Below are positions 45,884 through 60,086 of a stretch of 64,000 bases of DNA, one piece after another. The number at the start of each line of letters is the position of its first letter. Positions within the stretch are counted from its first letter, which is position 1. The notes below the pieces were generated by a model. It was not told the DNA's origin and did no database searches. It was given only the letters and a program-made list of their open reading frames with translations. The position numbers were made by a program, and so were the translations under genes. The stretch is from contig NZ_LR027880.1 in NCBI RefSeq assembly GCF_900537995.1, forward strand, positions 2,984,001-3,048,000, written 5' to 3'. This DNA is from Roseburia intestinalis L1-82. Lineage in GTDB: Bacteria; Bacillota; Clostridia; Lachnospirales; Lachnospiraceae.

Positions 45884-48634
45884 TCACAAACGACCGCCCA
45901 CTGCAAATTTAGAAAAGCTCTTTGTTGTAAAGTTCACTGTCTGTTTCTTAGAATCATAATAAGATTTTGAAATCTTTTTGACATTTCCTTTTTTGCTGAT
46001 GGTGTATGCAAAAAGATCTTTCTTTTTTTCTTTCTTAGAAATCTTATAATGGATCTTTACGGTAACCTTTCCCTTTTTCAATTTTCCTAACGTTTTTTTC
46101 TTTGCACCTGTAACCGAAATTTCATACATTGGACGTTTTTTGACAATTTTACCTGCCTTTGAAGAAAGAATGCGTTTATCTAATTTCTTAACATGAAAAT
46201 ACACATCTGAATTCATCTGTTTTTTTATTTCTTTTAAGGCATTGCGGTCCATGATAACTGCAACATTTCCAAATTCCAATTGCAGTGCTTTTGCCTCTTT
46301 TTTGATAAGGTAATTAATCGTTGATTTATCAAGTTTTAAAACCTGTTTTTTCCCTTTCCTGGATTTACATTTTATTGTGACGGTCTTATTCTTTATTGTT
46401 TTATCTGTCTTGCTTTCAAGTTCTGGCACAGGTGTTACATTTGGAACCACTTCTGTTTCTCCCGGATTCGGCTTCTCTGGTGCCGGTTTTTCTGGTGTTG
46501 GTTTCTCCGGTGCCGGTTTCTCCGGGGTCGGTTCTTCTGGTGCCGGTTTCTCCGGGGTTGGTTCTTCTGGTGTCGGTTTTTCCGGGGGAATCAATGTCCC
46601 TCCCCCAGTTTGTGACTTCTTTTCTTTCACAGTAACCTGACAGGCAGCTTTACTCCCCGCATAGTTTGCATTACCGTTATATCTGGCAGTAAATAGATAC
46701 GTCTTTGTCTTGTTCGGAAGCGATACCGTCCACTGATCATTTTCCTTCTTAACCAGTGTAATGCTGGAATCATTGCAAGTAATATCCACCGGTTCATCTG
46801 CGCTGATTCCCTGTTTTAAAACTTTAAGTGTTACGCTGCCAGCGCCCTCTAATCCCTCTGGTGTTGCAAGAAGATTTAATTCTGTAACCGCTTTTGTAAT
46901 TTCCAAAGTTGCCTCTCCATAACAGGATTTTGCAGAATCAGAAGATGCCTCAAAATAAATGGTATATTTTCCTGCATCCGTATAGGCAGGAAGTTCTTCG
47001 ATCGTATAAGGACCGTCCGCATTCATACTATAACGAAGCTCCACACCTTTTCCTGGCGTAATATCAAATGTATGGGGATTCGAATCATAAGGTACTATAA
47101 CCGGGTTTACCGTACACTCTGCAGGATCCTTATCCTCCATGGAATCATTTTTCTCCTGATAATAATAAGTAATATCCATGCTGCTTTCCGTGATCTTTAC
47201 CTTATCCTGATCCAGACTGTTTCCAATACAGGTATAACCGGCTAATTCCGGATTTCTTAAGGTATATGTAGAGTTTTGCGGTACATATACAATGGATGTT
47301 TCTGTATTCGGAATATTTTGTTTTGTTCCATCTTCTGACTTTAACTGGTAATGAATATTTACCGTGCTCCATGCCTGATTCGCTGTTTTATCGGTAGCTA
47401 AAACTTCCTGCGTATCCATGTCCACAATTTTTCCATCCAGTCTGTCACCTTTTGTCAGACCATACACATCATGAAGTACAATGGAAAGAGACTCTCTTGC
47501 AGCATCCGGGTTATATGAATTTGTAAGGGCAGGAATGGTAAATTCTTGTTCTTCACTATATTTTACAGTTATGCCATCTGCACCAATAATGCGAAAACTC
47601 ATCTTAAGATGTTGTTCTTTATTTACCATATTTTGCACTACCGTGCGAAATTCTAAATCATCATCATTGGCTTTCGTAATGTTAGACTCGGTAATCCTGT
47701 ATTTCTCACTATCCCTGTCAAGTGTCGCCGTTTTGCTGTGAGCAATGGAAACTTCCGGATCACTGATATAAAGAGCTGCCGGTCTGCTGACATAATCCGT
47801 ATTATTGAGTTTTCTTGCCAGTTCCATCTTGCAGACCTCGCAAAACGGCTGTCCAAGCCTTCTCATCATACATTCACGGCTGGGCGCAAATGCGGTATCC
47901 GTTCCGGCGGTAGTGATTCCGATTCCACGAAATCCTAACATTTTACTCCACTTGATCGTATCTGGATTCGCTGTATCGGAAGTATTTGGTTTATTGGTGT
48001 ATCTCTCATATTCATCTCCCAGTCTACCTATACTATGGGCGATTTCATGAGCCATGGCTGTTCCATCACTATTATCCTCAGAATTTGTAGAAAAAGAAAA
48101 TAATGGATTTACTGATGCACCATAGCTTCCTGTATCATTACAAAGTATATGAATCGTTCCAACATTTGCACCTTCATCCAGATAATTTTCTTCCAGTTCC
48201 GTTCTTAACGCTTTCGCCCTTTCATCCCCGCCATTGGTAAATCCGGCTGCCTTTCCATATACTTTGACATGAAAATATGTATCCGGACTCTTACCGCCAT
48301 ACACTCCAATGCCTGGCTCGTTAGAAACTGCCTGCACAGCGTAAATATTAATACGGTCAGAATATTCCCTATATGGTGACCATGTCAGCATTCCACGCGC
48401 CTTTTGGGTGGCATCTTCCAAAAACTGATCCTGCTGACCGGCGGTATAGCCATCTCCCATGATCACGATCACAAAGTTTTCTTTATCATCACCAGTCTTA
48501 TGAATTACCTGAACCGGAAATGTGGTTTTGGATTTTTCTGTATTTTTTGCCATTGCTGTTTGTGGCAAAAGCAACAATAATAATAACATCATATAGATAC
48601 ATACTGCTTGTATTCGTTTTATTTTTCTTTTCAT
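45884..48634 (-). CDS. Secreted M64-family metallopeptidase (IgA peptidase family)
   Basis: About 916 residues from the ATG of MKRKIKRIQ (AAAGGTGAAGTAT upstream). Signal peptide to about residue 29 (PQTAMA). Peptidase domain with zinc motif HEIAHSIGRLGDEY at His196-His200. Then a MucBP-like stretch (YQLKSEDGTKQNIPNT), two Ig/MBG-like domains (about 500-690), a Pro/Glu/Lys linker of about nine EPTPEKPAP-type units, and a Lys-rich basic C-terminal domain ending in the surface-protein-like KSFSKFAVGGRL. No LPxTG. M64 founders cleave human IgA; whether this one does is unproven. The basic tail could bind wall polymers (inference). Confidence 0.85.
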   Translation of the reverse strand: MKRKIKRIQAVCIYMMLLLLLLLPQTAMAKNTEKSKTTFPVQVIHKTGDDKENFVIVIMGDGYTAGQQDQFLEDATQKARGMLTWSPYREYSDRINIYAVQAVSNEPGIGVYGGKSPDTYFHVKVYGKAAGFTNGGDERAKALRTELEENYLDEGANVGTIHILCNDTGSYGASVNPLFSFSTNSEDNSDGTAMAHEIAHSIGRLGDEYERYTNKPNTSDTANPDTIKWSKMLGFRGIGITTAGTDTAFAPSRECMMRRLGQPFCEVCKMELARKLNNTDYVSRPAALYISDPEVSIAHSKTATLDRDSEKYRITESNITKANDDDLEFRTVVQNMVNKEQHLKMSFRIIGADGITVKYSEEQEFTIPALTNSYNPDAARESLSIVLHDVYGLTKGDRLDGKIVDMDTQEVLATDKTANQAWSTVNIHYQLKSEDGTKQNIPNTETSIVYVPQNSTYTLRNPELAGYTCIGNSLDQDKVKITESSMDITYYYQEKNDSMEDKDPAECTVNPVIVPYDSNPHTFDITPGKGVELRYSMNADGPYTIEELPAYTDAGKYTIYFEASSDSAKSCYGEATLEITKAVTELNLLATPEGLEGAGSVTLKVLKQGISADEPVDITCNDSSITLVKKENDQWTVSLPNKTKTYLFTARYNGNANYAGSKAACQVTVKEKKSQTGGGTLIPPEKPTPEEPTPEKPAPEEPTPEKPAPEKPTPEKPAPEKPNPGETEVVPNVTPVPELESKTDKTIKNKTVTIKCKSRKGKKQVLKLDKSTINYLIKKEAKALQLEFGNVAVIMDRNALKEIKKQMNSDVYFHVKKLDKRILSSKAGKIVKKRPMYEISVTGAKKKTLGKLKKGKVTVKIHYKISKKEKKKDLFAYTISKKGNVKKISKSYYDSKKQTVNFTTKSFSKFAVGGRL

Positions 48635-48777
48635 ATACTTCACCTTTTGTTGAATGAGATTTTTCTTCGCTATCAGATTTTTCACGCAGTTTCCTCGGAA
48701 TTGCGCTTGATGCCGTCCACAATACTCATAATCCTTCTTGCCGAATCCATATTAATCTGCAAAAGGAGGATTTTCTT

Positions 48778-50734: not shown

Positions 50735-52286
50735 CAGGGATTTCGCTTTTAACTTTTTTATCTATGCATTTTTATAAATAATCCAGTTATCAGCATTCCA
50801 TCTGCGGTTACCCTTCGTTCCTGGTCAATACGCGCAAAATTCCCCCTGCTTTTTCCCTATATATTTTTTCTGCTGATTTTCTATCCGCCTTTTTCACATA
50901 AAATCTGTTTCACTTTTTCTGTTAGCAGCTCATCGCAAAAAATCCGGTTTATGCTCTTTCGGCTTATACCACTTCCTGCAAAGTTCCGGCTTCTTCGGTA
51001 CAAATATAACTCTCTTACATTAAAGCCTATGATTATCAGATTAAATATGGTTTCAACCGCATCTCGACAGTAACAGTGCTTTGCGTGGTAATACGTTTTC
51101 AATTGATGGAAACCATTCTCCTCAATGTCCCACCTGCGGTGCATCATTTCCCATAAGACTCGGTAGTCTGCCGCTTCCAGAGTCGTTACAAGCCACATGA
51201 AACGCTCTGTTTCTTTTCCATTTTCTTCCCACTGCTCATGATACCGCACCACACGCAGTTTATATGGACACCCTTCCATCTTAAAACCAGAAAGATCCCA
51301 TACTTCAATCTTCTTTTTCCCTTTCCAGAAAGATGCCTTTTTTCCCTCATCCTGTTTGAACAGACGCTCTGCATCCTGAAAAATCATTCTTCTTTCGTCT
51401 TTCAGGCGTATCACCCCTTCCAGACCATTTTCCTTCAGAGTGTTGATAAATGGAGCATTCAGATATAACGCATCCGCCACAATCACATCCGCAAAATGTC
51501 CATGCCGTTTCTTCAGCCGCTCAATCAACCTTTTTCCGCCTGTCAGTTCTCCTTCGTCTTTCCCAGAACCATCCCTTGGTTTTAACATTTCCTGCCCCAG
51601 AATTACGTGTGGCGATTTACCTATAATCATGCACACCACACTCCGGTAAAAGTATTCGGTTTCCCCTGTGTGTTTTTTTCGGCTCAGACAGTTCGGACAG
51701 GATTTTTTTGTACTGCTGAATAATTCCACACCATCGAGACCTGCCACAACATATCCGCCTATCGTTCCTTCCCGGAATACCCGGTTACGTTTTATGATAT
51801 CAATCATTTCTTCATGTATGCTGCGTATTTCATCCGGGTTTATTCTGGAGAGAAGGTCGCGGACTGCATCAACTTTTGGAATCCTTCCACTGATACAGTT
51901 TTTCAGTCTTTTCGACATGCTTTCAGGGGCTGAAAAAATGGTATGGAAACTTTCATACTGCAGCATCAGAAAAAGCAGTACCGGCATGACAATGTTAAAC
52001 AATGGAATAGATTTTCTTTTTCTTTCGTCCGTTAAACACTTGATTTTTTGCGGGATTTTATATACACTCTTCATATAAGTTAGCAGTTTCTTCAATGCTA
52101 ATTTTTCATTCAGGACACCTTCTTTCGTATGTTTTGTTCCATAACATAATTATACAATAAAAGGTGTCCTTTTTGAGTGATTATACAGAAAAAAACAGTA
52201 ATTTGATACCCAAAATTGATATCCCCTGCTTTGCCTGGAATTCACAGGCAGAACAGGGGCTTTTATTTTTTAAAGCGAAATCTCTG
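50735..52286 (-). mobile_element. Complete insertion sequence, IS4-like, 9-bp target duplication
   Basis: Terminal inverted repeats CAGGGATTTCGCTTT (50735-50749) and its near complement AAAGCGAAATCTCTG (52272-52286), 14 of 15 matching. The element is flanked on both sides by AAAGTGATA (50726-50734 and 52287-52295), a perfect 9-bp direct duplication. Length about 1552 bp with one transposase gene. A hairpin CCCCTG...CAGGGG at about 52219-52258 lies between the outer end and the transposase start, placed like the folds that shield IS10/IS50 transposase from outside transcripts. Confidence 0.92.
50881..52095 (-). CDS. DDE transposase (IS4-like)
   Basis: 404 residues, apparently intact. DDE residues in VVAGLDGVELF, VIVADALYLNAPFI and RRWDIEENGFHQLK, the last being the Y/W-x2-E-x6-K-type motif of IS4-like enzymes. 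A zinc-ribbon-like CPNCLSRKKH loop follows the first Asp. The exact IS family cannot be assigned without a search; the 9-bp duplication fits IS4-group elements. Confidence 0.88.
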   Translation of the reverse strand: MKKLLTYMKSVYKIPQKIKCLTDERKRKSIPLFNIVMPVLLFLMLQYESFHTIFSAPESMSKRLKNCISGRIPKVDAVRDLLSRINPDEIRSIHEEMIDIIKRNRVFREGTIGGYVVAGLDGVELFSSTKKSCPNCLSRKKHTGETEYFYRSVVCMIIGKSPHVILGQEMLKPRDGSGKDEGELTGGKRLIERLKKRHGHFADVIVADALYLNAPFINTLKENGLEGVIRLKDERRMIFQDAERLFKQDEGKKASFWKGKKKIEVWDLSGFKMEGCPYKLRVVRYHEQWEENGKETERFMWLVTTLEAADYRVLWEMMHRRWDIEENGFHQLKTYYHAKHCYCRDAVETIFNLIIIGFNVRELYLYRRSRNFAGSGISRKSINRIFCDELLTEKVKQILCEKGG

Positions 52287-52382
52287 AAAGTGATATATTT
52301 CAAAACATAATTCTTGCCATTGGTTTTCAGTCAAATTTGTCTATGTAAGACCGCAAGGCAGGTTGCCCTGCGGTGCATTCCG

Positions 52383-52706
52383 AGAACAGAGGAAGTACCC
52401 GACGGGTACAAGGAAATATCCTTTGTCTGCCTGAGATCTGACGGAGCATACGAGTCACCGAGTACAGTTGGTGTTATGACAAGGTCGGCAAAAAAGAAGC
52501 TGGAAGGATTTGAAGATTTCCATTTTCATATGCCGAGACACACATTCACCAGTAATCTGCTCTCCAATGGTGCAGCACCAAAGGATGTGCAGGAACTGCT
52601 TGGACACGCTGACGTAAGTACCACAATGAACATCTACGCTCACTCTAAAAGGGAAGCGAAACGAACTTCCGCAAGACTGCTTGATAAGGTGGTCGGGGAA
52701 GCCTAA
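52383..52706 (+). pseudogene. Tyrosine recombinase, C-terminal fragment
   Basis: Only the last roughly 105 residues remain. The catalytic HMPRHTFTS (H-x2-R), [16 protein letters not shown] (second His and Tyr nucleophile) survive, but the N-terminal arm, core-binding domain and first catalytic Arg are missing. The break lies just inside the right flank of the IS, though the IS itself inserted about 90 bp upstream. Matches phage/ICE integrases of Firmicutes. Confidence 0.85.
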
Positions 52707-52877
52707 ACAAAAAATTTCCCTTGTTTCGGCTCATAAGGGCAAAAACAAGGGAAAATACATAAGGAACGAGTATTAAATTGCTGATTTTCCTTGAAAATAC
52801 AAGGGTTTCGGAGGATTGATTAGATAAATCCGAATTTATGGGATCAGATTGTAAGATAAAAAGCCTTATTTATTCCC

Positions 52878-53156
52878 TTAAAACCCACCCTTTTGATATG
52901 CTCTGGCAATAATATAGGATGGTTCATAATATGCGCTACAATTATAATTATCTATTATATCACAAATATCACTATTATAAACCCTATATATTTCATCAAC
53001 ATAATTTTCATTCCAAAGAGCCGTATCAACAATCAATCGCTGATATACTTTCCCCATCTGTATTACTGACGGGATCTGGCTCACTAATTCTTTATTCACA
53101 TCCGAAATATCAAAATCGCCATTTTCTAATTGGTAAGTTTCAATCCAGTTTTTCAT
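52878..53156 (-). CDS. Hypothetical 92-residue protein, paralogue of the 54.0-kb gene
   Basis: Its body (IPSVIQMGKVYQRLI, VYNSDICDIIDNYN, YYEPSYIIARAY) aligns with the C-terminal half of the product at 54000-54437 (IPSHWDIAKVYKRLI, VYNSFLSAKIDDYN, YYENPSYLLECY). It lacks the DUF3791-like N-terminal part of that protein, so it may be a fragment or a short form. Function unknown; the domain keeps company with DUF3990 toxin-like genes. Confidence 0.6.
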   Translation of the reverse strand: MKNWIETYQLENGDFDISDVNKELVSQIPSVIQMGKVYQRLIVDTALWNENYVDEIYRVYNSDICDIIDNYNCSAYYEPSYIIARAYQKGGF

Positions 53157-53180
53157 CTAAACTTTCCTTCATTCACAAGT

Positions 53181-53624
53181 CTATGCAATATACTTTCGAT
53201 GCGACGCTTTCACATTATTCTGGTTTACGATTGCATACTGCATTGTCGTGTCTATCTGAGAATGTCCCAAAATTTTCTGTACCTGTTCTATCGGCATTCC
53301 CTTATCAATCGCCCTCGTTGCCATCGTTCGCCGGAACTTGTGCGGATGTATTCTCTCCATGCTTATTTTTCTGCCAAGCTCACGAACCCGGATTTCCACA
53401 CCGCTGATTTTTAATCTGTCATATGGAGCATCTAAAGTTGTAAATAATGCAGGATTATCGTCATGACAGCTATTAATATTTAAATATGTTTCATTAGATG
53501 TCTGCTCTCTCTGCGGTGCTTCACTGGATAAATTTTTAAGCAGCACTTCCTGTAATTTTTTCGTCTGTGCAATGCTCAAAAAATCTGCCATTTCATTTAA
53601 TATGCATACTAATTTTTCATCCAT
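53181..53624 (-). pseudogene. Tyrosine recombinase with large internal deletion
   Basis: 147 residues in one frame. The first 50 (MDEKLVCILNEMADFLSIAQ...NETYL) look like the N-terminus of a Lachnospiraceae integrase, while the remainder is the C-terminal catalytic half (IHPHKFRRTMATRAI, ILGHSQIDTTMQYA). A full-length enzyme is over 300 residues, so roughly 180-200 residues of core-binding and early catalytic domain, including the first Arg, are gone in frame. Probably inactive. Confidence 0.8.
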
Positions 53625-54674: not shown

Positions 54675-55505
54675 CTACTCCGCCTCATGCATCTCCACTC
54701 CCGGCTTTGCCTCCACCGTATGTGTTGCCTCATAGAGTGACGCCGTCGGTGCGACCGGGCTCATGAGCACTTTTCCGGTTCCGCGGTACACATTGACGAA
54801 TCCTTCACCGCTGACTGCCGAACCCACAAGCGTTTTCGTCGATCTCTCCACAGTAAATTCCAGACCAGAGGACCAGCAGACTGCAAGATTTCCGTCAATT
54901 TTTAATTCATCATTGTCAAGTTCCACCTCAATCAGTTCTTCATACGGCACGTTACTCTCCAATGCTGCGACACCTTCCCCGACCAGACTTAAGTTGAAAA
55001 ATCCTTCTTTGCCAAGCACGGTCGATGAGATTGTTTTCCGCGCCGTCAGCTTATTTTTTACGGTTCCGGAACAGGCATAAAATATGCCATCCTCAATCGT
55101 CATGCCCTTTTCACCCCAGGATCCGACATCCACTAAGATCAGATATTTATAGGTAGGTTCTAACACCAGAATGCCGTTGCCGACGTATTCCGGTTTGACT
55201 GCTGTCTCCTTTGTGATCGCACCTTTGACCATCTTGCCGACAAAATCACCGACTCCCTTGATCCCTGTGGTTGCTTTCACATGACCTGCCATCCACTGCA
55301 TGCTGCCCGCCTGGATAATGGCAGACTCTTTTCCGTTTAGTTCAATAACGATCTGGCGTCTGCGGACACCCATTTTACTCATAAAGTACTCATTTCTCGC
55401 ATTTTCCGGCGCAACGGAGGCGTCTGACTGATACTCTAATACATGAAAATTTCCAAGACTGCTCACATATTTTCTTGCGTTGTTTTCTAAATTTTTTATA
55501 TTCAT
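54675..55505 (-). CDS. AIM24 family protein
   Basis: 276 residues. The layout QIVIELNGKESAIIQAGSMQ, GEGFVNVYRGTGKVLMSP and the paired beta-strand pattern are those of the AIM24 (TIGR00266-like) double beta-helix family. Bacterial members have no proven function; the yeast relative affects mitochondrial membrane organisation. Start after AAGGGAGTTTAA. The DUF3990 fragment lies 17 bp downstream. Confidence 0.85.
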   Translation of the reverse strand: MNIKNLENNARKYVSSLGNFHVLEYQSDASVAPENARNEYFMSKMGVRRRQIVIELNGKESAIIQAGSMQWMAGHVKATTGIKGVGDFVGKMVKGAITKETAVKPEYVGNGILVLEPTYKYLILVDVGSWGEKGMTIEDGIFYACSGTVKNKLTARKTISSTVLGKEGFFNLSLVGEGVAALESNVPYEELIEVELDNDELKIDGNLAVCWSSGLEFTVERSTKTLVGSAVSGEGFVNVYRGTGKVLMSPVAPTASLYEATHTVEAKPGVEMHEAE

Positions 55506-55653: not shown

Positions 55654-55787
55654 GTTACTGTTCACTCGTACCTCGTTCCAGTAACGGATTTTGCCGATGC
55701 TTCGCATTCCAAATCGGCAAAATCTGCTGCCACCACTGTATCATACGGCATTTTCAGTTCAGAAAATGCCTGCCTGTGAACAGTAGC
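55654..55787. mobile_element. MITE-like element with terminal inverted repeats and target duplication
   Basis: 134 bp bounded by GTTACTGTTCAC (55654-55665) and GTGAACAGTAGC (55776-55787), inverted repeats matching at 11 of 12 positions. GTAAAGTC flanks both sides (55646-55653 and 55788-55795), consistent with an 8-bp target duplication. Inside are two strong hairpins: GATTTTGCCGAT/ATCGGCAAAATC and GGCATTTTC/GAAAATGCC. No coding capacity. It inserted across the last codons of the HelD-fusion gene and supplies its present stop. Confidence 0.8.
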
Positions 55788-58700
55788 GTAAAGTCAATGT
55801 TCTCTGGTAGATCTCAACCAATTTTTCACGGTTCTTTTCGCTGATAAAATAATAATCGCTCTGACTCCCCTCTGCCATGATATAAGGTCCAAAAGTCCGT
55901 ATCCCACAAAACAGCACGGTTCCTTTTGATGCTACGGCAAGCCCGTATCCCTTTTCCGATATTACAAGCGGCATTCTTAACTTTTTTCCTCCATGGGAAA
56001 TATATTTTGCTTTTGCTGTCACATCCATAAAATCAGCAGCAAGCAGTCCCTTTGCTTTCAAATGTTCGGACTTTTCCCAGTCAAAAAATATCCAGTTACA
56101 TCTGCCTTCCTGAAACCTTGGCTCCTCCGCTTTTTCCGCAAGCAACAGTTGCTTTTTCTCATTGTAAAAACAGACCGCTCCATTATTTTTTGCAATGCGC
56201 ACGGTAACTTTTTCCGTTGCAATTTCCACCAGCGTTTTGGATTCCTTTGCACTCCATGAAAATGCTGTATCCGCCTTTCCTTTCCATGCTGTATCGCCAA
56301 TTTTTTCCGTGACACCCTTCACGAAACTGACCCGGATCACCTCCGGTGTGATCGGTGTGATGCGTAAAAGTCCGTACATACTGGAAAGTTCCACATAGCT
56401 TTTTGTCTTTTTGATCCATTTGATGGCAAAATTGTTTCGGGAATGGCCTTTAACACGGAGGATCGCATTGTCCGGGATCGCGCCAAATTCGTACGGAGAC
56501 AGGATGATTTCCTCCGTATGGTTTTCTTCGTTTTTTCCAGCGCTGTCTGCTGCTTTTCTGACTGGCGCTGCCACAGCTCTCTTATAGGCAGATGCCATTT
56601 TCTGCCCTGTCAATGTTTTTCCTCTTGCCTCAGCCTCATTTTCTTTCCCCTGCGGTTTAATGACAATGCGCTTCGGACCGATATACTCGCGCTCTGCCAT
56701 ATCCTTTGCGCCCTCGATCCTGCGCTGCTGTTCGATCTCTTTTTCCGTGTGCTGCACCCGTTCAAATTCCGCTGCTTTTGTCAAGGTTTCTGCCGCAAAC
56801 TCTTTCATATGTTTTCCTTCCTGGACTTTGTCGGCAAGGATCCCGGTCAGTTTTCCACGGTACAAAACCACAAGTTCATGCAGTGCGCGGGTCGCAGCCA
56901 CATACAGAAGTTTGACATGCCCGTTATCCGACGGGTATTTTTCCTGCGTCGGATCAAACAGCAGCACAGCATCAAATTCAAGTCCTTTCGTGTAGGAGAC
57001 AGGAAGCACCATGACGCCATCCCCGAACTCGGCTTTTTCCAGATCTGTTTCTACAATTTTTACATATTTCTTTAGTTCTTCCGCAACCTGTGCCGCTTCC
57101 GCCTCATCACGACAGATCACAGCGATCGTCTCATAACCGTCCTGCTGCCATTTTTTGATCGTGGTGACGGTATCTGCCAGCAATTTATTTTCATCCGGAC
57201 ATGCCACCGTCTGCACCGGATTTCCGTGACGGATAATCGGCTCTACCGGATAAATGGAAAAGTCTCCATGGCGCAGGATCTCGTTTGCATACTCTGAAAT
57301 CTCCACCGTGTTGCGGTAACTTTTCCTAAGAAGTCCAAACGCATCGAAGATCCCGGTCAAAATCAGTTTTTTCAACTCTTCCCAGTCGTTTAAACCATAC
57401 TCAAAATGAATATTCTGGGATGTATCACCCATGATCGTGTAAGTACAGCCATACAGACAGTAATGCAGGCATCTGTATGACATCATGCCAAAGTCCTGCG
57501 CCTCATCAATCACTACATGGCTCGCCTCACGCACCGGATCCGTCTCTTTGATCCTCTTGTAAATATATGCAAGCGCCGCAAGATCATAGACATCAAACGA
57601 GTTTTCCGGCACATCGACTTCTTTTCCTGCCTCCTGCTGCGCAAGTAAAAATTCTCTGTAAAAAGTAAATACAGATTCTCTCCATTTTCCATCCCCAAAA
57701 TAAGACGCGTATTTTTTGTCTAAAATCTTTTTCTCTTTTGGCGGAAAAGTCACGGACTTCCCGGAAACCTCATTTTCATATTTTGCATACAAAATCTCAT
57801 TTAACATGAGTATCTTGCTCTGCATGGAAACTTTCGGATTATTTTTTAAATAACGTCCGATCTGCTCCTTTGATAACAGGAGATTTCCAGTCTTTTCCAT
57901 ATAAATGTCTTCTTTTGCGATCGACTGATTCTCATAGTTCTGGCAGAATTTTTCTAAATCCAGAAACCACGCCGTGCCGCCCTTGATGCTGTTTTTTGCA
58001 TCTGTCTTGTCGATATTGTGGTAAGAAAACCGCGTCTCGTCCCAATCCTCATACAAAAGGCGGATGAAAAGCTGCTCCATCGTCATCTGACGGATTCCAT
58101 ACACATCAAGTTCCGGCAGAACACTTGTGATATAATTCAAAAGAATCCGGTTGCTTCCTATAATATAAAAGTCCTCCGGGCGGAAATCATCTTTATAATT
58201 ATATAGAATATAGGAAATACGGTGCATCGCCACTGTCGTTTTTCCGGAACCGGCGACACCCTGCACAATGATGTTCGTTTTCGGCGAACGGCGGATAATG
58301 AGGTTCTGCTCTTTCTGGATCGTCGCAATGATCTCGCCCAAAACTGCCTTTTTATTTTTGGCAAGGTATTTTGTCAGCAGTTCATCGTTGGCGACCACAT
58401 CCGAATCAAAGAAATCTTTTAACCGGTCATTTTCAATCTCGTAAGTGCGCTTGCGTTTCAGATCAATCTCAAATGTCCCCTCAGAGCTCACGGTATACTG
58501 GCATGTTCCCATCCTGCTCTCATAGTATACTGATGCAATCGGTGCCCGCCAGTCGAGCACGACCGGATCAGAGCTGCTGTCCGTGATGCCGACTCTTCCA
58601 ATATAATAAGCCTCATCCGCTTTCGCCTTTGGATCCCTGAAATCAATGCGCCCAAAATACGGCTTCTTACGCGCCTTTTCATAGCGCACCAGTTCCCGTT

Positions 58701-59559
58701 CATCCTCCTTTAACCGCGCGGTTGCATTGTTCCAGAGTGCCAGTCCTTCCTTATCCTTTGCATCGTAGACTTCGAGGAGATCGGCAAGATCTTCATTGAT
58801 CTTCCGGATATCTTCTTTCGCATGATCTAAATTATCCTGCGCAATCTCTATGATTTTACTGAGCTGATGCTCCTCGTCTTCCTTTGTCAGACCAGGGAAT
58901 TTCTTAAACAGCTTTATGATCTCATCTAACGAATCCACCCTCGCTGCCAGCTTCCCACGCAATGCCTCATCCGGTTCGGTCTGATCCGGCACCATCACAA
59001 CATTACAGCCTGCACCATAAGCACTGCATACACCGTTTGGGGAATCCTCAACTGCGATACATTCCTCCGGCAAAAGCGCAAGCTGTCTGCATGCATACTG
59101 ATAGATATCCGGTGAAGGCTTTCCATGTTCCACCATCGTTGCACAGATGATCTGATCAAAATAACCGTAAAGACCAAGCTGCTTTAAATACTGTTCCGTA
59201 CGCACCTGATCTGTCGCCGTCGCGATTGCACGGCGAATACCCTGTGCCTTTAAATAATCAAGAAGTTCGATTGCACCTTTTTTGATTTCAATTCCGTTTT
59301 TCTCCAGATATTCTCCCATAATCTGTTTGCGGTAGTTTCGGATCGCAATATAATCCAGATCCGGATCATGAAACATTTCTTTTAAATGCTGTGGTGCATA
59401 CGGCTGTCCGAGTGACCGCATGGTAAGTGCCTGCTCGTCCGTCATCTCATATCCAAAATGCGCTAATGCCTTTGGCCAGAACATGCGGTAATATTTTTCC
59501 GTATCGATCAATGTGCCGTCCATGTCAAAAATTACTGCTTTTATCTTTTTTATATTCAT
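55759..59559 (-). CDS. HAD phosphatase - HelD helicase - GH31 N-domain fusion protein
   Basis: 1266 residues in one uninterrupted frame. Residues 1-217: HAD hydrolase of the beta-phosphoglucomutase type, with DMDGT (12-16), TATD (114-117), HGKPSPD (145-151) and VEDSPNG (170-176). Residues about 222-955: HelD-type superfamily 1 helicase, with an N-terminal coiled coil (231-265), DWRAPIASVYYES (336-348), Walker A GVAGSGKT (434-441), DEAQ (685-688), GDTSQ (711-715), KSYRN (746-750) and VAATRA (887-892). HelD recycles RNA polymerase. After a basic linker, residues about 1055-1255 resemble the N-terminal beta-sandwich of GH31 glycosidases (KAKYISHG, LVISEKGYGLAV, SDYYFIS), but no catalytic barrel follows. 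The last residues RYCSQAGIF are encoded by the MITE. Confidence 0.88.
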   Translation of the reverse strand: MNIKKIKAVIFDMDGTLIDTEKYYRMFWPKALAHFGYEMTDEQALTMRSLGQPYAPQHLKEMFHDPDLDYIAIRNYRKQIMGEYLEKNGIEIKKGAIELLDYLKAQGIRRAIATATDQVRTEQYLKQLGLYGYFDQIICATMVEHGKPSPDIYQYACRQLALLPEECIAVEDSPNGVCSAYGAGCNVVMVPDQTEPDEALRGKLAARVDSLDEIIKLFKKFPGLTKEDEEHQLSKIIEIAQDNLDHAKEDIRKINEDLADLLEVYDAKDKEGLALWNNATARLKEDERELVRYEKARKKPYFGRIDFRDPKAKADEAYYIGRVGITDSSSDPVVLDWRAPIASVYYESRMGTCQYTVSSEGTFEIDLKRKRTYEIENDRLKDFFDSDVVANDELLTKYLAKNKKAVLGEIIATIQKEQNLIIRRSPKTNIIVQGVAGSGKTTVAMHRISYILYNYKDDFRPEDFYIIGSNRILLNYITSVLPELDVYGIRQMTMEQLFIRLLYEDWDETRFSYHNIDKTDAKNSIKGGTAWFLDLEKFCQNYENQSIAKEDIYMEKTGNLLLSKEQIGRYLKNNPKVSMQSKILMLNEILYAKYENEVSGKSVTFPPKEKKILDKKYASYFGDGKWRESVFTFYREFLLAQQEAGKEVDVPENSFDVYDLAALAYIYKRIKETDPVREASHVVIDEAQDFGMMSYRCLHYCLYGCTYTIMGDTSQNIHFEYGLNDWEELKKLILTGIFDAFGLLRKSYRNTVEISEYANEILRHGDFSIYPVEPIIRHGNPVQTVACPDENKLLADTVTTIKKWQQDGYETIAVICRDEAEAAQVAEELKKYVKIVETDLEKAEFGDGVMVLPVSYTKGLEFDAVLLFDPTQEKYPSDNGHVKLLYVAATRALHELVVLYRGKLTGILADKVQEGKHMKEFAAETLTKAAEFERVQHTEKEIEQQRRIEGAKDMAEREYIGPKRIVIKPQGKENEAEARGKTLTGQKMASAYKRAVAAPVRKAADSAGKNEENHTEEIILSPYEFGAIPDNAILRVKGHSRNNFAIKWIKKTKSYVELSSMYGLLRITPITPEVIRVSFVKGVTEKIGDTAWKGKADTAFSWSAKESKTLVEIATEKVTVRIAKNNGAVCFYNEKKQLLLAEKAEEPRFQEGRCNWIFFDWEKSEHLKAKGLLAADFMDVTAKAKYISHGGKKLRMPLVISEKGYGLAVASKGTVLFCGIRTFGPYIMAEGSQSDYYFISEKNREKLVEIYQRTLTLRYCSQAGIF

Positions 59560-59819: not shown

Positions 59820-60086
59820 TCAGACGTTCCATCGTGGCTCTTTTGCATACCCCATAAACAGATCAAAGATCGCACGGTAGCCTTCTTCCTTGATATGCAT
59901 TCCCTCAATCGTATACTCTGCTTTTAGATTTCCATCCCGGTCTTTTAACGGATCATTGATATCTATATATTTTGCATGATGTCTTTCCGCAAGCTCCTGC
60001 ACTGCCTTATTTGCCATCGCATTTTTCCCCGGTACCACTTCCTGATTCAATTTACTGTAACGTGCAATTTTTTCTTCTTTCGTCAT
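59820..60086 (-). pseudogene. SGNH/GDSL hydrolase, C-terminal remnant
   Basis: 88 residues: HHAKYIDINDPLKDRDGN followed by YTIEGMHIKEEGYRAIFD is the end of SGNH hydrolases, holding the catalytic His. The usual Asp three residues before it reads Glu, and the GDS serine block is absent. Translation is still well set up: its ATG follows GAGGAGGATTAAC, in which the TAA is the LysR stop, so the two are coupled. Either a shortened gene still made or an inactive leftover. Confidence 0.65.

Follow-up and report, generated by a model that had tools for sequence, protein, structure and literature searches.

We analysed a 64,000-nucleotide window of the Roseburia intestinalis L1-82 genome (contig NZ_LR027880.1, positions 2,984,001 to 3,048,000) and focused on one minus-strand gene, in which a HelD-type RNA polymerase recycling motor is preceded by a HAD phosphatase domain and followed by the N-terminal domain of a GH31 glycosidase. 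The frame runs for 1266 codons from an ATG at 59559, with AGAGGAAAAAC immediately before it. The host genome consists of one contig of 4,493,348 bases, and this gene is its only HelD match (E up to 0.001). A sequence-only reading of this DNA had proposed the three-part frame; we confirmed the fusion, and the domain identities and boundaries it gave are correct. In positions of the window, the features are as follows.

55759 to 59559, minus strand: the whole frame, HAD - HelD - linker - GH31 N-domain, 1266 residues, with the stop codon at 55759-55761.
58909 to 59559, minus strand: HAD-IA phosphatase domain, residues 1-217, assigned from profile matches and motifs; a separate gene in relatives.
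58894 to 58917, minus strand: fusion joint, about residues 215-222 (..KLFKKFPGL..), located by DNA comparison with regions L008, L010 and L016.
58666 to 58884, minus strand: secondary-channel arm ('pike') of HelD, residues 226-298, placed from the structure model and the homologous position described in Pei 2020.
56695 to 58902, minus strand: HelD motor, residues 220-955, assigned from profile matches and superfamily 1 (SF1) helicase motifs.
56440 to 56694, minus strand: linker, residues 956-1040, delimited by model confidence and charge count.
55762 to 56439, minus strand: GH31 N-terminal beta-sandwich without a catalytic barrel, basic, residues 1041-1266 (domain proper to about 1257).

The central part matched the NCBIfam model HelD_BACSU at E 1.7e-104 and, with homology over arm and motor, the class I structure PDB 6wvk at E 1.2e-70 versus E 2.8e-32 for the class II structure 6yxu. 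Because the HelD_BACSU score of 350.4 bits falls under the equivalog cut-off of 419, we label the protein class I-like and not a B. subtilis equivalog. The intact helicase and HAD motifs that had been claimed could all be located: the Q motif at residue 413, Walker A at 437, Ia at 470, IDEAQ at 684, III at 711, IV at 746, V at 857 and VI at 888 in the motor, and motifs I (DMDGT, 12), II (ATATD, 113), III (GKPSPD, 146) and IV (VEDSPNG, 170) in the HAD domain. The arm is predicted as two long helices, 226-264 and 270-298, with the tip EVYDAKDKEG at 263 (predicted local distance difference test score, pLDDT, about 64-88 over the block); the pike of B. subtilis HelD is given as residues 4-96 (Pei 2020). 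Bacillus subtilis HelD (class I; PDB 6wvk, 6zca, 6zfb) shares the N-terminal helical arm and the SF1 motifs and aligns over both motor halves, but has 774 residues and no extra domains, whereas the protein described here adds an N-terminal HAD and a C-terminal linker and GH31 N-domain. HelD sizes are given as about 680-850 residues by Larsen 2021 (PMC8655204), in which R. intestinalis is named in a tree legend. HelD is reported to force the polymerase open and expel nucleic acids (Newing 2020, PMC7749167; Pei 2020), and a review (PMC10719064) describes HelD factors as clearing stalled RNA polymerase and actinobacterial HelR forms as releasing rifampicin-stalled polymerase. As a class I-like HelD, the fusion protein would be expected to use ATP to strip nucleic acids from stalled RNA polymerase, a putative recycling role.

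The C-terminal domain (CTD) has the GH31 N-terminal beta-sandwich fold (old Pfam name DUF4968; Gal_mutarotas_2). The host domain scored 21.1 bits, under the Gal_mutarotas_2 (PF13802) cut-off of 27, and 11 of 19 alignment members, host included, matched PF13802 at E up to 0.1. As the sequence-only reading had it, the catalytic (beta/alpha)8 barrel is absent: the frame stops right after the N-domain and no barrel family appears among the Pfam hits. The CTD resembles the GH31 glycosidases FjDex31A (6jr8) and BoGH31A (5jou) in the beta-sandwich, including the DYYF..Y..L stretch that lies just before the barrel, but it differs from them in having no barrel, GLGQ, QAN or DG hairpin and in its inverted charge. 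The GLGQ motif, conserved at 95-100% per position in 20 GH31 N-domains, reads A-K-G-I in the CTDs, which also lack the N of the QAN stretch and a hairpin, some 35 columns long, that contains an invariant DG. In the enzymes these three motifs presumably lie near the active site. The 20 comparison frames, from the same order, were found with the CTD profile and kept if they matched from before position 40 to after 190; being selected by that profile, they are the GH31 frames nearest the CTD and no random sample. In a tree with 33 of the 97 CTD rows (every third unique sequence longer than 200 residues, with the host added), CTDs and GH31 N-domains were separated by one split, 100/100. Among GH31-length frames in the family search, the N-domain of a 762-residue frame (L085, G433:C18) scored highest against the CTD profile, at 102.6 bits. 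Its genome also carries a HelD-CTD (L086); the tree nonetheless groups L085 with the GH31 domains.

The CTDs are also inverted in charge. Over whole domains, the 97 unique CTDs have a mean net charge of +7.7 (isoelectric point 9.2; range -9 to 13) versus -6.3 (isoelectric point 5.7; range -13 to 2) for GH31 N-domains. Across 215 shared columns, the same 33 CTD rows averaged +7.2 (2 to 12) and the 20 GH31 N-domains -6.7 (-17 to 1), with a Mann-Whitney p of 1.4e-9 that is descriptive, related rows being treated as independent. Fourteen positions were gained as conserved K/R in the CTDs (13 of them K/R in the host) and two were lost. The whole-domain comparison left out L087, L088 and L089, which have a CTD without 200 aligned HelD residues in frame, and the GH31-length L197, by a coverage rule. 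This positive charge belongs to the tail in particular, since the HelD cores of these proteins are acidic (mean net charge -23 in 19 CTD-bearing HelDs, and -17 in 10 plain ones). The linker has pLDDT under 50 over 956-1015 and a net charge of +2 in the host, with a mean of +5.1 in 95 family linkers. Together, motif loss and basic charge fit a domain recruited to touch nucleic acid or an acidic surface on a protein, and they argue against a sugar site having been kept.

We found a CTD match with E below 1e-30 in 33 of 397 genomes of the family Lachnospiraceae. HelD and CTD share one frame in 35 of the 39 regions fetched for HelD or CTD matches; of the other four, L085 is the GH31-length frame, L087 and L089 are frames interrupted by a contig end, and L088 has its HelD and its CTD in separate frames. 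From a scan of named genomes, in which records near the host may be missing, 80 of 281 loci were kept, with Roseburia, Blautia, Mediterraneibacter, Fusicatenibacter, Oliverpabstia, Hungatella and Kineothrix among them. Among these 80 matches, 77 start at residue 181 or later of the host protein, and the three that start at residues 4-6 come from loci where the HAD is separate but adjacent. Outside the family, 392 genomes of the order (E up to 1e-15) and 291 of the class (E up to 1e-20) showed no CTD in a frame of HelD length; the matching frames there, not all of which were read, have the GH31-enzyme length of 784-825 residues, and the result holds for this sample and does not exclude such a frame elsewhere. 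A tree of 29 HelD cores, without the truncated L026, separated 19 CTD-bearing HelDs from 10 plain ones, the top scorers against the host protein, by one split, 100/100. Neighbour genes were grouped into families at 35% identity and 60% length. Besides HelD-CTD, none of these families is present in more than five of the 40 neighbourhoods, the 39 regions and the host, and the one that reaches five is the HAD; we rejected a conserved operon partner as an explanation of the CTD because neighbour families are this rare.

The HelD-CTD architecture has been touched on but not described in the literature as far as the available text of these papers goes. The methods of Newing 2020 (PMC7749167) report DUF4968-containing hits (74 and 37) selected for their HelD-like sequences, which probably have the same HelD and GH31 N-domain architecture; the passages on them do not give the domain's description, origin, charge or distribution, nor the HAD fusion. 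Among the homologue matches listed, the Roseburia porci cluster P0014 bears the name 'DUF4968 domain-containing protein'. In the main text of Larsen 2021 (PMC8655204) the terms 'DUF4968', 'fusion', 'extension' and 'glycosyl' have zero occurrences. Our search of open-licence papers found none on a HAD-HelD or GH31-HelD fusion, and 'DUF4968' together with HelD in Newing 2020 alone.

In B. subtilis, the polymerase delta subunit, with its acidic tail, is described as assisting DNA dislodging (Pei 2020), and delta is reported to be absent in Clostridia (Newing 2020, PMC7749167). Our profile search for delta gave no match in 60 genomes, the host among them; of the 14 controls, it did match B. subtilis and L. 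lactis.

At the other end of the protein, the HAD domain scored above the cut-offs of the HAD-IA models (TIGR01509, 72.4 bits versus 29.4; Pfam HAD_2, 133.6 versus 23.8). 'Beta-phosphoglucomutase-like', the name first given to it, holds as a superfamily label and fails for the enzyme itself: the score against the equivalog TIGR01990 is 88.8 bits versus a cut-off of 189.4, and the nearest solved relative by sequence is the HAD of the mannitol-1-phosphate dehydrogenase/phosphatase MtlD (PDB 7ocn, E 2e-31). In MtlD the HAD is likewise N-terminal within a fusion, but it is joined to a dehydrogenase, where the one here is joined to a motor. Further matches in this HAD branch, to InDiPhoBT2121 (74.5 bits, cut-off 245) and the pseudouridine-5'-phosphatase 9m7l (E 6e-17), are both weaker than that to the MtlD phosphatase domain. 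With its active-site motifs retained, the domain probably acts on a small phosphorylated metabolite. Gene context was rejected as a substrate clue, the neighbours being mixed with no clear pointer: nine neighbour families of HAD or helD were scanned in relatives, and the eight with a Pfam hit (low-molecular-weight phosphatase, integrase, tRNA-editing domain, Y-family DNA polymerase, class II tRNA synthetase, GNAT/GatC protein, amidase and histidine kinase) include no sugar gene.

HelD acquired the GH31 N-domain and the HAD in separate events; the former is the older, and the HAD join is recent. A match running through the joint occurs in one of 62 genomes of the genus, that of the host. The HAD gene is separate, directly upstream of helD and on the same strand, in five genomes (G014, G016, G051, which is R. 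porci, G218 and G509, which is Oliverpabstia intestinalis), and lies elsewhere in the genome in further relatives. At the joint, R. porci DNA has the HAD stop, AGGAGG and the helD ATG; the host reads straight through and is about 40 bases shorter. The HAD was once a separate gene; it came to sit immediately upstream of helD and was joined to it when some 40 bases with stop, ribosome-binding site and start were lost. A homologue search scored 7996 candidates and gave 4631 matches; among the best 120 of these, clusters P0002-P0005 (3626, 3, 11 and 30 members) match over the whole length with the same full architecture, and clusters P0006-P0012, at 84-88% identity, are without the HAD. What the sequence-only reading had said would count against it, separate genes in close relatives with joins at assembly or frameshift errors, is thus found by half, because the HAD is a separate gene in relatives; the joints do not lie at such errors.

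The loci around this join vary in other ways. In L067 and L069, HAD and HelD-CTD are flanked by a tRNA-editing-domain gene and a cluster with tRNA synthetase, GatC and amidase, a neighbourhood partly common to relatives that have the HAD there without HelD, and therefore helD probably moved next to the HAD. In P0004 the HAD is 98% and HelD 99% identical to the host protein, with the linker at 68% and the CTD at 86%, a distance as in the unfused P0008 type; in P0006 the HelD N-terminus is of a different type. The gene seems to have been shuffled between close lineages by recombination, unless P0004 and P0006 are assembly chimeras.

We propose that the protein is a HelD recycling motor with a GH31-derived basic gripping tail and a recently fused passenger HAD, and give this explanation as a whole a probability of about one half. 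The architecture, the fold, the lost motifs, the inverted charge, the sequence of the two joins and the empty delta search are observations, whereas polymerase recycling by this protein, binding by its tail, the passenger role of the HAD and the position on the polymerase are inferences. On its long disordered linker, the CTD is predicted to take hold, during recycling, of DNA, RNA or an acidic surface of the polymerase. Such a tethered domain could help retain or pull away nucleic acid once it is released, or anchor HelD on the polymerase, in bacteria without a delta hit. The N-terminus of HelD is found at the base of the secondary-channel arm, which would place the HAD at the foot of the arm, at the secondary-channel rim of the polymerase. 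It is most likely a tolerated passenger that retains its own activity, a view we take because its neighbourhood is uninformative and the fusion is not conserved.

Several observations weigh against this explanation. One of the 97 CTDs has a net charge of -9 over the whole domain, and the CTD is less conserved than HelD (57% versus 78% to R. porci). A long branch leads to the CTD-bearing HelDs, and the tree program flags a risk of long-branch joins. Genomes without a delta hit (G006, G019, G020, G096) carry plain HelDs too, so absence of delta alone does not explain the CTD. The HelD-CTD model, built on a shallow 18-row alignment, has a predicted template modelling score (pTM) of 0.39 and low pLDDT also in parts of the motor, and for these reasons does not give the location of the CTD on HelD. 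Retention of the fusion in several sister clusters slightly exceeds what a neutral passenger would require, and the adjacency of HAD and helD in five genomes could reflect a functional link. Finally, the positive charge might instead be there to bind the acidic HelD core or some other protein.

This last point leads to the most serious alternative, which we consider possible though the less probable: the basic domain would be a protein clamp on RNA polymerase, the acidic HelD core or a partner, with no nucleic-acid contact. The acidity of the HelD core in both CTD-bearing and plain forms is consistent with it, as are the large protein contacts that HelD is described as making with the polymerase, and the conserved non-basic CTD positions (G92, E107, A149, I152, C183 and G189 in domain numbering) suggest a specific interface or core. 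Against a clamp, the model gives no confident placement of the CTD on HelD, a point weakened by the shallow alignment.

We regard it as unlikely that the HAD and GH31-type domains sense sugars or sugar phosphates and adjust HelD accordingly, putting polymerase rescue under metabolic control, as the sequence-only reading had suggested. Both added domains do come from sugar-related families, and the host fusion has its counterpart in the HAD-helD adjacency of five other genomes. However, metabolite-sensing control of transcription is unsupported: motifs invariant or nearly so in the 20 GH31 N-domains are lost, the CTD is basic, 61 of the 62 genus genomes have no match through the joint, and the neighbours with Pfam matches include no sugar gene. 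Equally doubtful is a bolder proposal in which the GH31 domain is HelD's nucleic-acid- or polymerase-gripping hand across Lachnospiraceae, with the role that delta has in Bacillus, and the HAD of one lineage processes pyrophosphate or nucleotides at the secondary channel during rescue. That the HAD is coupled to HelD by position, hydrolysing pyrophosphate or odd nucleotides at the secondary-channel rim near the active-site entrance, is improbable: its predicted place at the base of the arm and the pyrophosphatase and nucleotide-type phosphatases in its branch favour the idea, but the scores are far under family cut-offs (as for InDiPhoBT2121) and below that of the MtlD phosphatase domain, and the fusion is limited to one lineage. 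A sequencing or assembly error joining separate genes is very improbable and was rejected: relatives do keep HAD and HelD apart, and the close clusters P0006-P0012 are HAD-free, but the genome is a single contig, four further clusters carry the full fusion, and the joint cleanly deletes stop, ribosome-binding site and start.

Elsewhere in the window, an 88-residue frame between a LysR gene and the fusion gene (59823-60086, minus strand) matches a GDSL lipase solely over its C-terminal end (Pfam profile positions 125-178 of 178) and is probably a gene remnant. Near an AIM24-family gene (54675-55505), a DDE transposase and two short tyrosine-recombinase C-terminal pieces lie on opposite strands (50884-52095 and 52314-53624), which suggests mobile-element remains downstream of the fusion gene. 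Further along, 45884-48685 (minus strand) encodes a 933-residue protein that combines an M64 domain (IgA peptidase family) with a proline-rich stretch of EKP/EEP repeats.

Many Lachnospiraceae thus have a form of HelD with a glycosidase-derived domain whose enzyme signatures are lost and whose charge is inverted, and the host species displays the steps of a fusion, from separate through adjacent to fused, at one locus. If the domain grips nucleic acid or polymerase, it would be a clear case of an enzyme domain converted to service in the transcription apparatus, and might explain how HelD is helped to dislodge DNA in bacteria that lack delta.

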